Of a stretch of DNA of 64,000 bases, positions 8,427 to 53,936 are shown piece after piece (position 1 is the first letter of the stretch; every line of letters begins with the position of its first letter). The position numbers and the translations under genes were made by a program. Under the pieces are notes generated by a model. That model was not told the origin of the DNA, ran no database searches, and worked only from the letters and a program-made list of their open reading frames with translations. The DNA is from Flavobacteriia bacterium. GTDB lineage: Bacteria > Bacteroidota > Bacteroidia > Flavobacteriales_D > Crocinitomicaceae. Location: contig CANFUT010000026.1 of NCBI GenBank assembly GCA_947450325.1, forward strand, positions 1-64,000. The letters are read 5' to 3'.

Positions 8427-10484
8427 ATGATAAAAAATTACTTTTCATTCGTATTAATTACATTAACAATGACCCCACTTTTTGCACAAGTGGAAGATGA
8501 ATCTTGTTTGCCACCAGCCAAAAAGGTTTTGAAATTGATTGAAACAGCCAAAAATACTGCTGACGCTAAAACTGCGGTTGTTAATTTCAATGAAGCGATA
8601 GCAGCAGCTCCAGACAATGCAATGGCTTATTATGAGTACGGAATGTTTGCTTACAAACAAGGAATGAAATTTTACGATCAAAATCCTAATCCTGCAGTTG
8701 GCGACAAGAGCATGGCGAAAGCGGATGAAATGTTTAAACAAGCATTAACCTATTGCTCCGATTACCATGCAAATTGCTCGTATTATATCGGAGTGATTCA
8801 ATATTCTAAAGGAAATAAAACTGAAGCAATTGAATATTTCAAGAAATTTGCAGCTTTTAAAAGTGACAATCAAGAAAGATATCCTGAAGATTTTTCTAAG
8901 AAATTGGCTGATGTTCAAAGTGTTTTGAAAGAATTGGAAGGAGAACAAGAATTATTGACGAAAGCTGTTCCATTTAATCCAATTATGGTTGCTAATGTGA
9001 GTACACCAAGTTGGGATGAATATTTTCCAATGATTTCACCTGACAATGAGTTGATGTTTTACACACGTAAAATTGATCGAAAAAATATTGGCGATGTGAT
9101 TTCAAACATTGTGGAAGAATTCACTTATTCCGCAAGAACTAAAAATGAAGGACCAAATTTCGACGGTGGAAAACCTTTTGAAAATCCTTTCAACGATGGA
9201 ACCTATCCAAGTTATGGCGCTGCAACCATGTCAGTCGACAACAAAGAGATGATTTTATGTGCTTGTAAAGACGAAATGGTTGATGCGCAGAAATACAGAA
9301 ATTGCGACTTATATATTACCAGATTTGAAAGAAGTGGAGAGGGTGGAAATGATTTCAAATGGACTCCTTTAGAAAATATGGGACCAGGCATCAATTCTGC
9401 ACGTGGATGGGATGCGCAACCAACACTTTCCGCAGATGGAAACACTTTGTATTATACAACTTTAAGAAGCGGCGCAGATGCCACTCAAGACAATGATATT
9501 TGGGTTGCCGAGCGAGATTCAAAAGGTAAATGGGGCGCAGGAAGACCTTTTGCTGAAATCAACACACCTGGAAAAGACAAAAGCCCATTTTTGCACCAAG
9601 ACAGTGAAACCTTGTATTTCGTTTCTTCATCCACTGAAACTAGAAAAGGTGTTGGAGGTTTAGATATTTTTTACATCAGAAAAGAAGATGGAAAATGGTC
9701 GAAACCAAAAAATATCGGTTACCCAATTAATACTGCAGAAGATGAAATCGGAATTTTCGTTTCAACAGATGGTAATTTAGCTTATTATTCTTCTCGCTAC
9801 GGAGGAAACTGGAATATTTACGCTTTTGAATTATACAAAGAAGCACGTCCACAGGCAGTTGCGATTGTGAAAGGAAGTTTGAAAGATGAAAATGGTGAAC
9901 CTGTAAAAAATGCAACCATTGAAATCGCCTACGGAAATTCAGACAAAGTTGAAACAGTTAAAGTGAACGGCGATGATGGAAAATATGCTGCAGTTGTAAA
10001 AACCAATGTGGCTCAAGACGTCATGGTAACTGTGAAAAAAGAAGGTCACGCTTTTGATTCTAAATTGATTACCAAAGAAGAAATCAAAAAAACAACAACT
10101 ATCAAAGGAAATGATTTGGCTGTTAGAGAATTGAAAGAAGGCGCTGCTTATACTATCAACGACATTTTATTTGCTACAAATTCTTATGCGTTGACTCCTA
10201 AATCAGAATTTATTTTGAAGCAATTTGCTAGATTCTTAAAAGAAAATCCAACGATTACCATTATGGTTCAAGGATATACGGATGATATTGGCGACGATAC
10301 GCAAAATATGAATTTATCAAAAGAACGTGCCAACGAAGTGAAGAAGTTCCTAGAAAAACAAGGAATCCAAGGAACAAGAATGACTTCGCAAGGATTTGGG
10401 GAAACAAAACCAAAAGTGCCAAACACAAATGAGTCAAACAGATCAGTCAATCGTAGAACTGATTTTATGATTATGAAGCTTTGA
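8427..10484 (+). CDS. OmpA-family protein with TPR, beta-propeller and CRD domains (PorE-like)
   Basis: The protein has 685 residues. A signal peptide (residues 1-20, ending FAQ) is followed by TPR-type helices (about 30-165), a PD40/WD40 propeller (about 185-465; blades with LYYTTLRSG, DNDIWVAER and LDIFYIRKEDG), a carboxypeptidase-regulatory-like fold (about 475-555) and an OmpA peptidoglycan-binding domain (about 575-685; GYTDDIG, LSKERA, NRRTDF). This domain order is that of PorE of the type IX secretion system, which anchors the outer-membrane ring to peptidoglycan. PorE of Porphyromonas is a lipoprotein; here the cleavage site has no lipobox Cys. Many Bacteroidota have several such paralogues, so the T9SS role is likely but not proven. 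A strong terminator follows. Confidence 0.85.
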   Translation: MIKNYFSFVLITLTMTPLFAQVEDESCLPPAKKVLKLIETAKNTADAKTAVVNFNEAIAAAPDNAMAYYEYGMFAYKQGMKFYDQNPNPAVGDKSMAKADEMFKQALTYCSDYHANCSYYIGVIQYSKGNKTEAIEYFKKFAAFKSDNQERYPEDFSKKLADVQSVLKELEGEQELLTKAVPFNPIMVANVSTPSWDEYFPMISPDNELMFYTRKIDRKNIGDVISNIVEEFTYSARTKNEGPNFDGGKPFENPFNDGTYPSYGAATMSVDNKEMILCACKDEMVDAQKYRNCDLYITRFERSGEGGNDFKWTPLENMGPGINSARGWDAQPTLSADGNTLYYTTLRSGADATQDNDIWVAERDSKGKWGAGRPFAEINTPGKDKSPFLHQDSETLYFVSSSTETRKGVGGLDIFYIRKEDGKWSKPKNIGYPINTAEDEIGIFVSTDGNLAYYSSRYGGNWNIYAFELYKEARPQAVAIVKGSLKDENGEPVKNATIEIAYGNSDKVETVKVNGDDGKYAAVVKTNVAQDVMVTVKKEGHAFDSKLITKEEIKKTTTIKGNDLAVRELKEGAAYTINDILFATNSYALTPKSEFILKQFARFLKENPTITIMVQGYTDDIGDDTQNMNLSKERANEVKKFLEKQGIQGTRMTSQGFGETKPKVPNTNESNRSVNRRTDFMIMKL

Positions 10485-10503
10485 TTCGAAACGAAATAAA
10501 ATG

Positions 10504-10536
10504 AAAAACCCCGAGATTGAAAGTCTCGGGGTTTTT
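10504..10536. terminator. Strong bidirectional intrinsic terminator
   Basis: AAAAACCCCGAGA pairs perfectly with TCTCGGGGTTTTT around a TTGAAAG loop, with an A-run before and a T-run after. It separates the convergent PorE-like gene and the FAD-linked oxidase gene. Confidence 0.95.
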
Positions 10537-10554
10537 CTTTGTAATGATATTTTT

Positions 10555-11949
10555 TTAAAAAATCTTCCCTGGATTCAAAATCAATTTTGGATCAAAAACC
10601 AATTTTATATTGCGCATCAAGTTCAATTGAATTTCATTGAACGCCAGTGGCATGTATTGTTTTTGAACGAGTCCGATTCCGTGCTCGCCAGAGATTGTTC
10701 CGCCCATAGCGATTACTTCCTTGAAAAGTTCGGAGATTGCTCCTGAAAGTTCATTGTCCCAAAAATGATCTGATAAATCGCCTTTGATAATATTGATATG
10801 CAAGTTTCCATCGCCTGCGTGACCATAGCAAACCGATTTAAAACCGTATTGATTTCCAATTCGTTTAACTGCTGATAACAAATTGGGAAGCTCAAACCTC
10901 GGAACAACCGTATCTTCTTCCTTATAAATAGAATGAGATTTAACCGCTTCACCTACTTTTCTGCGCAATTTCCAAAGTTGTTCTTTTTGCGCTTGACTGT
11001 CGGCGAATAATACCTCGTCAGTTTCGAAATTTTCCAATACGCTTAAAATTTTCTCACAATCTTGCATCAGTTGATCTGCGTCAAAACCATCAACTTCAAT
11101 CAACAAATGTGCTGCATGATTGTCTTTCACCTCGATAATTGTATCTGGTTCATAAGGCAAAGTCCACAATAGTGCGTCGCGCTCCATGAATTCCAATCCG
11201 CTTGGTGTAATCCCTGCCTGAAAAATGGCAGCAACGGCTTCACAAGCTTTTTGAGCATCGAAAAATGGAACGAGCATCAACAAATCCGTCGTTGGATGTG
11301 GAATTAATCGCATCACAATTTTCGTTATGACACCTAGAGTTCCTTCGCTTCCAACGATTAATTGTGTTAAATTATATCCTGTTGCATTTTTCAAAACATT
11401 GGCGCCAGTCCAAATAATTTCACCATTTGGCAAAACGACTTCCAGATTCAAAACATAATCTTTCGTCACACCGTATTTGACTGCTTTCGGTCCACCAGAA
11501 TTTTCGGAAACATTTCCACCGATAAAACAACTTCCTTTACTTGCTGGATCAGGAGGATAAAATAAACCTTTCTCTTTCACAGCATTTTGCAAAACTTGCG
11601 TAATAACACCAGGTTCAGTTGTTACTTGATGGTTTTTCTCATCAATTTCGATGATTTTGTTGAATTTTTCCATCGAAAGCGCGATGCCTTTTTCAACGGG
11701 TAATGCACCTCCGCTTAAGCCAGTTCTTGCGCCAGAAGGAGTTACCACGATCGTATTTTCAAAACAGTATTTTAGAATTGCGGAAACTTCTTCCACAGAA
11801 CTAGGTTTGACCACTAAATCGGGAAAGAATTGTAAGTCTTCTGTTTCATCATGACCATATTCCAGTCTAATTTCATCTTCTGTAAAACATCTATTTCCCA
11901 ATAGATTTTTAAAAAAAGCAATGTCTGAACTATCAATTGTTTTGTACAT
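10555..11949 (-). CDS. FAD-linked oxidase, GlcD/D-lactate dehydrogenase type
   Basis: This flavoprotein of about 464 residues is of the vanillyl-alcohol-oxidase fold. The FAD-binding PCMH domain (about 30-210) contains VVTPSGARTGLSGGA, DPASKGSCFIGGNVSENSGG and VGSEGTLGVIT. The FAD-oxidase C-terminal domain (about 230-464) contains YGHAGDGNLHINI and the final SGEHGIG with NPGKIF. These are the hallmarks of glycolate oxidase GlcD and D-lactate or D-2-hydroxyacid dehydrogenases; the exact substrate cannot be read from sequence. The frame is open from TTG 11970, but that TTG is part of a TAnnTTTG box, so ATG 11949 is chosen. Confidence 0.9.
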   Translation of the reverse strand: MYKTIDSSDIAFFKNLLGNRCFTEDEIRLEYGHDETEDLQFFPDLVVKPSSVEEVSAILKYCFENTIVVTPSGARTGLSGGALPVEKGIALSMEKFNKIIEIDEKNHQVTTEPGVITQVLQNAVKEKGLFYPPDPASKGSCFIGGNVSENSGGPKAVKYGVTKDYVLNLEVVLPNGEIIWTGANVLKNATGYNLTQLIVGSEGTLGVITKIVMRLIPHPTTDLLMLVPFFDAQKACEAVAAIFQAGITPSGLEFMERDALLWTLPYEPDTIIEVKDNHAAHLLIEVDGFDADQLMQDCEKILSVLENFETDEVLFADSQAQKEQLWKLRRKVGEAVKSHSIYKEEDTVVPRFELPNLLSAVKRIGNQYGFKSVCYGHAGDGNLHINIIKGDLSDHFWDNELSGAISELFKEVIAMGGTISGEHGIGLVQKQYMPLAFNEIQLNLMRNIKLVFDPKLILNPGKIF

Positions 11950-25314: not shown

Positions 25315-25659
25315 ATGTTTAAACAATCCATTGCTAGAATCTTTTGTGTCTTAACAGTATTTTTACTGACTAGCAATGTTGTATTATCTGCCGTACCTTT
25401 TCAGAAGTCTAAAGGGAAAATTACTGAGCGTAAAACTCAAACATTTTCACCTTACATAGACTTAGATCAAGATTCAGCTTATATTTTAGAAAAAGATCCA
25501 TTTGAAGATTTGGATTTCGTTGCTACTATACCTTTTTATCAAAATTATTTGTTCAGTGAAAATGCTTATACTGAAGAAGTAAAACATTTTTATAAAGTAA
25601 ATGGTCCTCATTACAAAACCACTCCAATCTGGTTGTTGGTAAGGCATATCCTAATATAA
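25315..25659 (+). CDS. Small exported protein, unknown function
   Basis: The protein has 114 residues with an N-terminal signal peptide (about residues 1-26, cleavage near VLSA). The remainder is acidic and aromatic-rich (DLDQDSAYILEKDPFEDLDF, then several Tyr/Phe). There are no cysteines in the mature part and no recognised domain. It is probably periplasmic or surface exposed. It lies 164 bases upstream of dabA on the same strand; whether it shares function with the dab locus is unknown. Confidence 0.65.
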   Translation: MFKQSIARIFCVLTVFLLTSNVVLSAVPFQKSKGKITERKTQTFSPYIDLDQDSAYILEKDPFEDLDFVATIPFYQNYLFSENAYTEEVKHFYKVNGPHYKTTPIWLLVRHILI

Positions 25660-30243: not shown

Positions 30244-31890
30244 ATGTCAAAATCAAATAAAAGATTTATTCCAGCTGATGGATTAGCAGGTTTAAAACAA
30301 AATTTTTCTTCTGATGCATTGTCAGGATTTCTTGTATTCTTATTAGCACTTCCATTGAGTTTAGGAATTGCGGGCGCTAGTGATTTCCCTCCAATTTATG
30401 GGTTAATCACTGCAATGATTGGAGGTATTGTAGTCAGCTTTTTTGCAGGATCTTTACTTACGATTAAAGGTCCAGCTGCTGGTTTGATTGTAATTGTTGC
30501 AGGTGCGGTCGCAGAATTGGGTCACGGAAATTCAGAACTTGGATGGAAATTGGCCCTCGGTGCTGTTGTGGTTGCCGGTGCTCTTCAAGTAATTTTTGGA
30601 TTATTAAAATTGGGTTCTTTAAGTGATTTTTTCCCTCTTTCTGCTGTACACGGTATGCTTGCTGCGATCGGAATTATCATTATCAGTAAACAACTCCACG
30701 TATTAGTTGGTATGAATCCGATGACACCCGAAGGTAAACCAATGGTTGAACCTGTTGAATTATTAGTTGAACTGAAAAATACATTTGCAAATTTCTTCCT
30801 GCACAAAGATGTTGCAATTGTTGGACTTGTAAGTTTAGGAATCGTTTTCGGATGGCCAATGCTTCCAGTAAAAGCGTTGAAAAAAATTCCTGCTGCTCTG
30901 ATTGTATTAGTCGTTTCTATTCCTTTAGCGATGTATATGGGAATTCACAATGTTGCAGATGTTAAAAATGCTGCAGGTGAAGTTGTTACAAAAGGTTTTT
31001 CTCCATTATTAGAATTCAAAAAAGGGTTGGTTGATATTATTGGTGTAAATGTAAGTTTTGATGGATTTTCTCAAACTGGAACTTTTATCAAATTTGTAAT
31101 CATGTTTGCTTTGGTTGGAAGCTTGGAAGCTTTATTGACTGTAAAAGCAATCGATATGTTGGATCCTTTTAAAAGAAAATCAAATGCAAATAAAGATTTA
31201 ATTGCTGTTGGAGTTGGAAATATTTTTGCAGGTGTCTTAGGTGGTTTACCAATGATTAGTGAGGTTGCTCGTTCTTCTGCAAATGTTAATAATGGTGGTA
31301 AAACGCGTTGGGCCAATTTCTTTCACGGTGTCTTTATTTTGTTGTTTTTATTCTTTGCAGTTACATTCAGTGATTTGATACCAAGAGCTGCATTAGCTGC
31401 TATGTTGATTGGAGTGGGCTGGAAATTGGCACACCCAAAGGAATTTGGTCACATGGCTAAAATTGGTTGGGACCAAGTTGCAGTTTTTGTTACAACAATT
31501 ATTTTCACTTTGGCAACAGATTTATTAGTTGGAATCGGAGCAGGGATTTTATTGAAAATGATTTTACACATTGCTAGAGGTGTTTCTGTAGGAAGTCTTT
31601 TCAGCGCCAAAACTAAAGTGGAAGGTCATACTGTAACAGTTCAAGGTGCAGCTGTATTTAGTAATTTCATTCCTGTTAAAAAACAATTATTAAAATTCCC
31701 GTTGACAGATCATGTGGTTTTTGATGTTAGACAATGCTTTTTTGTAGATCACTCGGTCATTGAAACACTTCACCATATGAAAGATGATTTTGCTTCTGAA
31801 GGTGGTAATCTAGAAATTCTAGGTATTGAAGAATTCAAATCAGTTGGAAAATCTAAACACAAATTAGCTGCAGTTAGAAAGCGTAAATAA
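30244..31890 (+). CDS. SulP-family anion transporter with STAS domain
   Basis: The protein has 548 residues. A SulP transmembrane domain of 10-14 helices (about 20-430; ALPLSLGIAGASDFPPIYGL, IKGPAAGLIVIVAG, GGLPMISEVARSSANVNNG) is followed by a C-terminal STAS domain (about 450-535; VVFDVRQCFFVDHSVIETLHHM). SulP proteins carry sulfate, bicarbonate or other anions. Its place directly after dabAB strongly suggests bicarbonate or related exchange rather than sulfate. It is not fused to a carbonic anhydrase, unlike some SulP proteins. Confidence 0.92.
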   Translation: MSKSNKRFIPADGLAGLKQNFSSDALSGFLVFLLALPLSLGIAGASDFPPIYGLITAMIGGIVVSFFAGSLLTIKGPAAGLIVIVAGAVAELGHGNSELGWKLALGAVVVAGALQVIFGLLKLGSLSDFFPLSAVHGMLAAIGIIIISKQLHVLVGMNPMTPEGKPMVEPVELLVELKNTFANFFLHKDVAIVGLVSLGIVFGWPMLPVKALKKIPAALIVLVVSIPLAMYMGIHNVADVKNAAGEVVTKGFSPLLEFKKGLVDIIGVNVSFDGFSQTGTFIKFVIMFALVGSLEALLTVKAIDMLDPFKRKSNANKDLIAVGVGNIFAGVLGGLPMISEVARSSANVNNGGKTRWANFFHGVFILLFLFFAVTFSDLIPRAALAAMLIGVGWKLAHPKEFGHMAKIGWDQVAVFVTTIIFTLATDLLVGIGAGILLKMILHIARGVSVGSLFSAKTKVEGHTVTVQGAAVFSNFIPVKKQLLKFPLTDHVVFDVRQCFFVDHSVIETLHHMKDDFASEGGNLEILGIEEFKSVGKSKHKLAAVRKRK

Positions 31891-31919
31891 TCTTTAAATT
31901 TTTAAACGATTAATTTATC

Positions 31920-32003
31920 AAAAGAGTCTTGAAATAGATTTGTTCCTAAGTACAAATTCTTTGTAATAGTCTGTTGGTTTATTACAAATTCAAGGCTCTT
32001 TTT
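31920..32003 (+). ncRNA. Predicted three-stem structured RNA element between sulP and the porin gene
   Basis: Outer stem: AAAAGAGTCTTGAA (31920-31933) pairs with TTCAAGGCTCTTTT (31989-32002), 14 pairs with one G-U. Inside are ATTTGT/ACAAAT (31938-31943 with 31952-31957, 8-base loop) and TTTGTAATA/TATTACAAA (31960-31968 with 31980-31988, 11-base loop). The third stem stacks directly on the outer stem, giving a classic three-way junction. The outer stem ends in a T-run, so it may be an attenuator or terminator controlling the porin gene, whose ATG is 14 bases beyond. An exact -7 box lies inside it (31935-31942). It matches no riboswitch class I know. Confidence 0.6.
31935..31942 (+). promoter_or_regulatory. 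-7 box (TAGATTTG) inside the structured element
   Basis: Exact TAnnTTTG. It predicts a start near 31946 and a leader of about 71 bases for the porin gene; the third stem would then lie in the 5' UTR, while the outer stem would lack its left arm. Confidence 0.35.
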
Positions 32004-32016
32004 AAAACCTTTTAAT

Positions 32017-33372
32017 ATGAAATTAAAAATAAAAGTCGGAGCAACGATACTAGTTGCAATTGCTGTTAGCACAACAAAAATTCAAGCTCAATCTTTGGAT
32101 AAAAAATACAAAGAAGGATTGAAGATTTATCTAAGTGACGACAGTACAAAATACATAAAAGCAACTGGTTTGGCTCAAATTTGGATGCGTTATAATGACA
32201 ATAATCCAGGTTCAACAATCTATGGAACTCCTAAAAAAGAAACATTTGATGTTGGGTTAAGACGTGTTCGTTATCAAATTATGTCTCAGGTTTCAAAGAA
32301 AGTATTTTTCTACACTCAAATTGGAATTAACAGTGTGAATAGTCTTTCGGCTAGAAAAACCGGAATATTTTTTCATGATGTAACCGGGGAATATAACGTT
32401 TATAAAAATTATCTGACTTTAGGAGCTGGATTGAGCGGATGGAACGGAACTTCTAGATTTTCATCTTCTGGGGTGTCTTCTATTTTAGGGATGGATTTAC
32501 CAGTAGTTCAGGAAGCTACAAATGATGTAACGGATCAATTTGTTAGGAAATTAGGAGTTTATGCGAAAGGTAAAATCAGTGGTTTTGACTACCGTTTTTC
32601 TGTTTCAAATCCTTTTCCAGTTCAAAATTCAATTTCACTTGTAGCTGCATTGCCAGCAACTGGAACGAATACAGCTTATTATTCTACAAATGCTCCAAAA
32701 TTGCAATATCAAAGTTATGCGATGTGGCAATTTTTTGACAAAGAAAGCAACCAATTGCCTTACATGACAGGATCTTATTTAGGTAAGAAAAAAGTGTTAA
32801 ATGTAGGTGCTGGATTTGCATACCAAAAAGATGCTATGTGGTACAGAAATTCTAATTTGGATACTGTTTCAAAACCCTTGCAGCAAGTTGGAATTGATGT
32901 ATTCTATGATAGCTATTTAGATAAAACAAAACAAAATGCGATTACGGCTTATGTTTCGTTTTTGAATTACAATTTCGGTCCAAATTATATCAGAAATGCA
33001 GGTGCAATGAACACAGCGAATGGTGTGAATAGCAAAGGAAGTTTTAATGGCGCAGGTAATGCGTTGCCATTAATAGGAACTGGTCAAGTGTTTTATGGTC
33101 AATTTGGATATTTATTCAGAAAAGATTTATTGAAAAGCTGCGGAACATTGCAACCATATGTTTCTGGTATTTATGCAAACTATGAAAAGCTTAAAGATCC
33201 AGTGATGGTCTATGATTTGGGTGTAAATTGGATCATGGGAGGAAGTAATTCTAAAATTTCCTTGGATTATCAAAGCCGACCAATTTTTAACACAGATGCG
33301 AACGGAAATATTTCTGAATCTAAATCTGCGAGAAGAGGACAATTGGTTTTACAATATCAGTTAGCATTTTAA
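32017..33372 (+). CDS. Outer-membrane porin-like beta-barrel protein
   Basis: The protein has 451 residues with a signal peptide (1-24, ending IQAQ) and many amphipathic strands ending in an aromatic residue (LVLQYQLAF at the C-terminus). The opening YLSDDSTKYIKATGLAQIWMRYNDNNPG resembles OprP/OprO-type porins of Bacteroidota. It probably lets small anions cross the outer membrane, and its place as last gene of the dabAB-sulP locus points to bicarbonate or another anion. Expression may be set separately by the RNA structure just upstream. Confidence 0.82.
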   Translation: MKLKIKVGATILVAIAVSTTKIQAQSLDKKYKEGLKIYLSDDSTKYIKATGLAQIWMRYNDNNPGSTIYGTPKKETFDVGLRRVRYQIMSQVSKKVFFYTQIGINSVNSLSARKTGIFFHDVTGEYNVYKNYLTLGAGLSGWNGTSRFSSSGVSSILGMDLPVVQEATNDVTDQFVRKLGVYAKGKISGFDYRFSVSNPFPVQNSISLVAALPATGTNTAYYSTNAPKLQYQSYAMWQFFDKESNQLPYMTGSYLGKKKVLNVGAGFAYQKDAMWYRNSNLDTVSKPLQQVGIDVFYDSYLDKTKQNAITAYVSFLNYNFGPNYIRNAGAMNTANGVNSKGSFNGAGNALPLIGTGQVFYGQFGYLFRKDLLKSCGTLQPYVSGIYANYEKLKDPVMVYDLGVNWIMGGSNSKISLDYQSRPIFNTDANGNISESKSARRGQLVLQYQLAF

Positions 33373-53307: not shown

Positions 53308-53645
53308 TGGCAAAAAAGAAATTTACCAATGTAGTTTATTCTACCAATCCTAATTTTCAATTTGAAACGGAGGAAGAGGAAACGGTTGATACACTTCCAA
53401 AAAATCAACAAAAATTGTATGTTTCGATAGATAAGAAACAGCGAGCTGGAAAAGAAGTGACTTTAATTGAAGGATTTATTGGTTCCGAGGAAGATTTGAA
53501 AGACTTAGGGAAAACGCTAAAAAGTAAATGTGGTGTTGGCGGAACGGTAAAAGATGGGGAAATTATTATTCAAGGAAATTTCCGCGATAAGGTAATGGAA
53601 TTGTTAGTAAAAGAAGGATATCAAGTTAAAAGAAAGGGTGGATAA
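53307..53645 (+). CDS. SUI1/YciH-family translation factor
   Basis: The 112-residue protein has an eIF1/SUI1 domain (about 35-112): VTLIEGFIG, LKDLGKTLKSKCGVGGTVKDGEIIIQG and the final VMELLVKEGYQVKRKGG, with the basic loop that contacts the ribosome. Bacterial YciH proteins influence start-codon fidelity. It overlaps the GDPD-like gene by one base and is probably translated by coupling. Confidence 0.92.
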   Translation: MAKKKFTNVVYSTNPNFQFETEEEETVDTLPKNQQKLYVSIDKKQRAGKEVTLIEGFIGSEEDLKDLGKTLKSKCGVGGTVKDGEIIIQGNFRDKVMELLVKEGYQVKRKGG

Positions 53646-53648
53646 AAA

Positions 53649-53718
53649 TCCTGATTCCGAAAATAAAACCAAAGGGAAAACCACTAACCCAGGAAATTAT
53701 TTTTTTTCGGAATCAGGA
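53649..53718. repeat. Perfect 15-base inverted repeat with 40-base spacer
   Basis: TCCTGATTCCGAAAA (53649-53663) is exactly complementary to TTTTCGGAATCAGGA (53704-53718). The 40-base spacer contains GGG (53674-53676) and CCC (53688-53690), which could form a small inner stem. The T-run is on the loop side of the right arm, so it is not a normal intrinsic terminator for either strand. It sits 4 bases after SUI1. Confidence 0.75.
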
Positions 53719-53936
53719 AATACTATTTAACAAAACAAAATAATACCGAAAAATCTATAATTCAAAAATAGATTATTTCTCATTTCAACAATTAAATAAT
53801 ATCTTAACTGTTGAATTAATTGATTGACTTGTGTTGTTTTTTAATTAAAAAGAAATAGCGTGTTTAAAAAGAGCAAATTCTGAGATAAAATTTCTTGGTT
53901 TACGCCTCTATTACTATCCATTTCCACTTAAATCTT

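Follow-up and report, generated by a model that had tools for sequence, protein, structure and literature searches.

A predicted three-way-junction leader RNA keeps its shape on two unlike alleles upstream of a Crocinitomicaceae porin gene

Does the folded stretch between the last two genes of a dab operon set the expression of the final gene apart from that of the genes before it? The question arises in a 64,000-nt stretch of a Flavobacteriia bacterium of the family Crocinitomicaceae (assembly GCA_947450325.1, contig CANFUT010000026.1), which we refer to as the window. In gene order, the probable operon encodes a small secreted-type protein, DabA (Pfam DabA), DabB (Proton_antipo_M), a SulP-type transporter (Sulfate_transp, 3e-62; 30244..31890, + strand) and a 451-aa outer-membrane protein (32017..33372, + strand). 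Bacteroidota work without Shine-Dalgarno sequences and, to our knowledge, little is known of how they set protein ratios within an operon.

The nearest named relatives of SulP come from Flavobacteriales and Crocinitomicaceae metagenome-assembled genomes. The 451-aa protein had no Pfam match, and its match to the porin ExtI in NCBIfam was below threshold. Its AlphaFold2 model is a beta-barrel (mean pLDDT 78, pTM 0.77) whose top PDB match is the phosphate porin OprP (2o4v, E = 2.7e-16). Therefore, "porin" is a fair name for this predicted OprP/OprO-like barrel. Its gene is under strong purifying selection, with a dN/dS of about 0.03–0.06.

A preliminary description of the locus had noted a three-way junction between sulP and the porin gene, built from a 14-pair outer stem, a 6-pair hairpin and a perfect 9-pair hairpin. 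Our predictions agree with this outline. The junction occupies 83 nt (31920–32002, + strand) just before the porin ATG. The outer stem pairs 31920–31933 with 31989–32002 in 14 pairs, one of them G-U (5' arm, mean pair probability 0.93), and its 3' arm is followed by one more U. Hairpin 1 (31937..31958; mean pair probability 0.93) has seven pairs, six Watson-Crick and one terminal G-U, joining 31937–31943 with 31952–31958 around the 8-nt loop UCCUAAGU. Hairpin 2 (31960..31988; mean pair probability 0.84) joins 31960–31968 with 31980–31988 in nine perfect pairs plus one possible G-U. The unpaired nucleotides at the junction number 3, 1 and 0, such that the 3' arm of hairpin 2 is flush with the outer stem. 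A 14-nt spacer (32003..32016) then leads to the porin ATG at 32017.

The minimum free energy of the element is -25.4 kcal/mol, compared with -10.9 ± 3.0 kcal/mol for shuffled sequences (z = -4.9), and none of 200 shuffles folded as well. The minus strand of the region also folds well (z = -4.4), because long inverted repeats are expected to fold on both strands. Among all 90-nt stretches of the window, both strands included, the element ranks second for its GC content. The strongest fold in the window (10466–10555) is a 16-bp hairpin with a T-run, an evident terminator, and a long near-perfect inverted repeat at 53641–53736 (TCCTGATTCCGAAAA...TTTTCGGAATCAGGA) folds well on both strands. Three-way topology alone is common, occurring in about 11% of 90-nt stretches. 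We therefore dropped topology as evidence in itself and relied on the strength and position of the fold. A descriptor that combined shape and size with the distance to the ATG, and that was defined once the three sequences discussed below had been seen, matched 23 of 12,000 shuffles (0.2%), and none at E ≤ -20. The predicted fold is statistically real.

The collection includes five genomes of the genus, and the porin occurs in three of them: that of the window (G000), G001 (89% identity) and G004 (83% identity). This conservation sample of three genomes amounts to effectively two independent sequences. At the orthologous loci, G001 (z = -5.3) and G004 (z = -6.0) both have a predicted three-way junction in the gap that separates sulP from the porin gene, with no shuffle out of 200 as good in either case. 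The junctions span 83, 81 and 79 nt and end 14, 14 and 15 nt before the ATG in the window, G001 and G004, respectively. In the sisters, as in the window, no nucleotide separates the 3' arm of hairpin 2 from the outer stem, and UGGUU occurs in the hairpin 2 loop of all three elements. Mean helix probabilities over the three junctions range from 0.77 to 0.97; when the G001 element is folded within a longer sequence, alternative folds compete with its outer stem and hairpin 1. We compared these leaders with other 110-nt regions upstream of porin-homologue and window-gene starts (76 regions, with that of the window entered twice). The three genus leaders folded most strongly given their composition (z = -4.9, -4.8 and -3.8), and the leaders of 27 other porin homologues (41–56% identity) gave z values from -3.5 to +1.3.

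Compensatory change had been proposed as a further check. Between G001 and G004, a single pair shows a double change (A-U to G-C), four retain pairing after a change on one side, and three are broken. The double change speaks for a conserved structure, but the covariation is thin: with two alignable sequences, half of the shuffles equal the observed measures. In the G001/G004 alignment, 93.8% of cells are paired, compared with 39–54% when the pairing is slid along the sequences. This control uses a structure derived from the same sequences, and we consider it better evidence than covariation. An alignment of the window arms with the sister arms was dropped as a basis for claiming compensatory changes, as identity there is at the level of shuffled sequence. 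Sequence conservation was also rejected as proof of function. The G001 and G004 elements are 74% identical over their alignment, which is striking next to 4-fold sites (41%), but neighbouring intergenic stretches are just as similar (62–82%).

The unlike letters of the window element have an apparent source. In blastn comparisons with G004, the window aligns at 80% identity up to position 30683 and at 79% from position 32097. Between these points, only 31077–31573 (about 500 nt of sulP) aligns, at 70%. The SulP proteins of the two genomes are 53% identical and the DabB proteins 94%. The mosaic segment (~30684..32096, + strand) covers most of sulP, the element and the porin signal peptide, and it apparently reflects a recombinational exchange inside the dab operon in one lineage. 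Such a replacement would explain why the identity between the window element and its sisters is at shuffled level. The leader nevertheless has the same shape on both alleles despite their unrelated letters, and plain sequence inheritance therefore does not explain that shape. Either old homology has been blurred by drift or selection has favoured one shape on both alleles. Chance is the least probable source, with n effectively two. For covariance searches, this means that a model seeded with a single allele can fail to find the structure where a different allele carries it.

We then asked with which genes the element travels. The preliminary description had tied it to the dab system, a link that our comparisons do not support. 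G001 lacks all that lies between the end of xre and roughly codon 284 of sulP, yet it retains the element and the porin. Therefore, the element follows the porin rather than the dab genes. No such junction occurs in other dab-sulP-porin loci of the family; the gap between sulP and porin contains single terminator-like hairpins in L050 and L100 and a hairpin in L057 and L098. The genes lost from G001 are those for the small secreted protein, DabA and DabB, together with the first half of sulP. What is left of sulP at this locus (L116, 6628–7497) is a remnant with an internal stop, and it stands before an intact porin gene under selection.

The window had no Rfam match at the gathering threshold, and a relaxed search of the element region returned only chance-level matches. 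Accordingly, a known Rfam family was rejected for the window element, in keeping with the earlier remark that no described class is known to have this form here. A covariance search had also been proposed with the first description. Across 99 genomes, a model built from the G001 and G004 elements recovered only those two, and it scored the window element at chance level (13 bits, E = 3) because the letters are unrelated. The other matches to this model (best 35 bits, in G094) look like chance, and the loci of named relatives gave one chance-level match. A DNA search of 240 family genomes with the window element found only short AT-rich matches that lack the junction. Thus, nothing like the element was found outside the genus in the genomes searched. 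Second porin paralogues in the window's own genome (C10) and in G002 are without such a leader. The element is not a dispersed repeat or mobile element, with one full copy only in its own genome (3.44 Mb in 42 contigs). A leader peptide or N-terminal extension of the porin was also discarded. The in-frame upstream stretch has an ATG in G004 only and a GTG in G001, and, judged by eye, the window version of the peptide is unrelated and third positions are not enriched among the differences that separate G001 from G004.

These observations indicate that the fold probably controls the amount of porin and is less likely to be a product of chance or a simple terminator, and that the element is a real and probably functional leader RNA, limited to the genus and outside the known classes. 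We favour a cis-acting leader RNA that uncouples the porin from the upstream genes, probably by serving as a processing boundary and 5' stabiliser, and we put the probability of this reading at roughly 0.45. RNA polymerase reading from upstream would copy the 79- to 83-nt junction just before the porin, and the transcript would fold in the cell at a fixed 14–15 nt from the AUG. The sulP side may then be cut at the element and decay, leaving the junction as a structured 5' end that could shield the porin message from ribonucleases. Porin expression would thereby be set apart from that of dabA, dabB and sulP. Genes for both RNase E/G and RNase Y are present in the genome. The element is well placed between sulP and the porin gene for the differential expression that the preliminary description had envisaged. 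The sister elements have no U-run, the leaders share no conserved -7 box, and the stretch next to the ATG lies outside the junction; a bounding and protecting leader is therefore favoured.

Leaders of this general kind are known. In the papBA transcript of Escherichia coli, an intercistronic RNA structure protects the 5' end of the downstream message (PMC5927463). The porin element is likewise a stable fold at a cistron junction, placed to protect the downstream message, and two of the three elements, those of the sisters, are like papBA in having no U-run, the structure being present in all three. It differs in branching into a three-way junction where papBA has one hairpin and in belonging to another phylum, and its cleavage and decay steps are putative. 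The 5' UTR stem-loops of ompA, recA and vacA are stabilisers with measured half-lives (PMC7509114). They too are structured leaders close to the start codon, and ompA, like the porin gene, encodes an outer-membrane protein; the present leader differs from them in lying within a probable operon, where its stabilising role is putative. Within the same phylum, a Flavobacterium psychrophilum study lists 64 structured 5' regions without an Rfam match (PMC9723704), which are also leaders outside known classes. The leader is ordinary in kind and unusual in a shape that has been kept through allelic exchange. A bolder reading, which we regard as quite improbable, is that it represents a new class of cis-regulatory RNA, recognised by an RNA-binding protein or nuclease through its three-dimensional shape and not its letters, and retained upstream of a Bacteroidota porin even where the allele was replaced or the remaining operon genes were lost. 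If the leader reading is true, an RNA with kept shape and spacing and exchanged letters would offer a compact test of how shape can govern the synthesis of outer-membrane proteins, and its having outlived the upstream carbon-transport genes would be part of its value.

Several other explanations compete with a protective leader. A terminator requires a U-run, and the preliminary description had proposed that the outer stem can terminate because it ends in a T-run. The element might then be a partial intrinsic terminator or attenuator that stops some transcripts after sulP and lets the rest read into the porin. At the window's own locus, one side of the stem is rich in A and its end reads GGCUCUUUUU, a U-run at which termination may occur. 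Evident terminators are found among the other strong folds of the window, and the hairpins between sulP and porin in related loci point the same way. The window element, with its short U-run, also resembles the partial-termination class (3'-PT) recorded in F. psychrophilum (PMC9723704). However, the outer stem is followed by TAAATTT or TTAAATCT in the sisters, and neither G001 nor G004 has a T-run there. We therefore rejected an intrinsic (Rho-independent) terminator with a U-run kept in orthologues, as the run occurs in the window only. A simple terminator scan made no call at the element, and the 55 nt within the outer stem set it apart from ordinary terminator hairpins; the branched 83-nt structure also differs from intrinsic and 3'-PT terminators. 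Moreover, only 14 nt separate the outer stem from the ATG, so that any porin promoter must lie before or inside the element. We regard partial termination as rather unlikely.

A regulated switch, in which a protein, small RNA or ligand binds the junction or the UGGUU loop of hairpin 2 and alters porin translation or mRNA stability, appears unlikely. Riboswitch aptamers have a conserved core, and the two alleles share none apart from UGGUU, their letters being otherwise unrelated; a riboswitch was rejected on these grounds. The occurrence of UGGUU in all three loops favours a binding site, but five common letters that rest on three sequences may be chance. In F. psychrophilum, the small RNA Rfp18 is predicted to pair within a 107-bp intergenic stretch and uncouple fpp2 from fpp1 (PMC9723704). 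No second copy of the element was found in its own genome or the other genomes searched, and no evidence was found for the ligand or bicarbonate sensing suggested earlier. A functionless fold whose likeness among the three leaders is coincidental seems very unlikely. Three-way topology is common, the descriptor was set after the data had been seen, and n is small. Yet none of the 12,000 shuffles combines the shape, place and energy, and each of the three orthologous leaders has a strong fold that exceeds those of the 27 others. Less probable still is that the site acts as DNA, as a promoter or operator with inverted repeats, with the RNA fold a by-product. TAGATTTG at 31935–31942 is a perfect Bacteroidota -7 promoter box (TAnnTTTG), which lies at -82 and overlaps the 5' arm of hairpin 1. 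This box is absent at that place in G001 and G004, and no conserved -7 box was found in the three leaders. Such a box turns up about once per kb by chance, and this one lacks a suitably spaced TTG. A shared pairing pattern on dissimilar letters also fits an RNA better than a DNA site that is read by sequence.

The ends of the dab operon differ among relatives. In many of them (L039–L042, L053–L056, L076 and L081), sulP is directly followed by a gene for a protein of ~250–260 aa that is not the porin; the one tested, from L039, is a DUF2490 protein. The last gene of the operon thus appears exchangeable. At the other end, the 114-aa small secreted-protein-like ORF before dabA (25315–25659), which has no Pfam or NCBIfam match, evolves quickly (60% identity in G004 and 38% in G002) yet stays in place.
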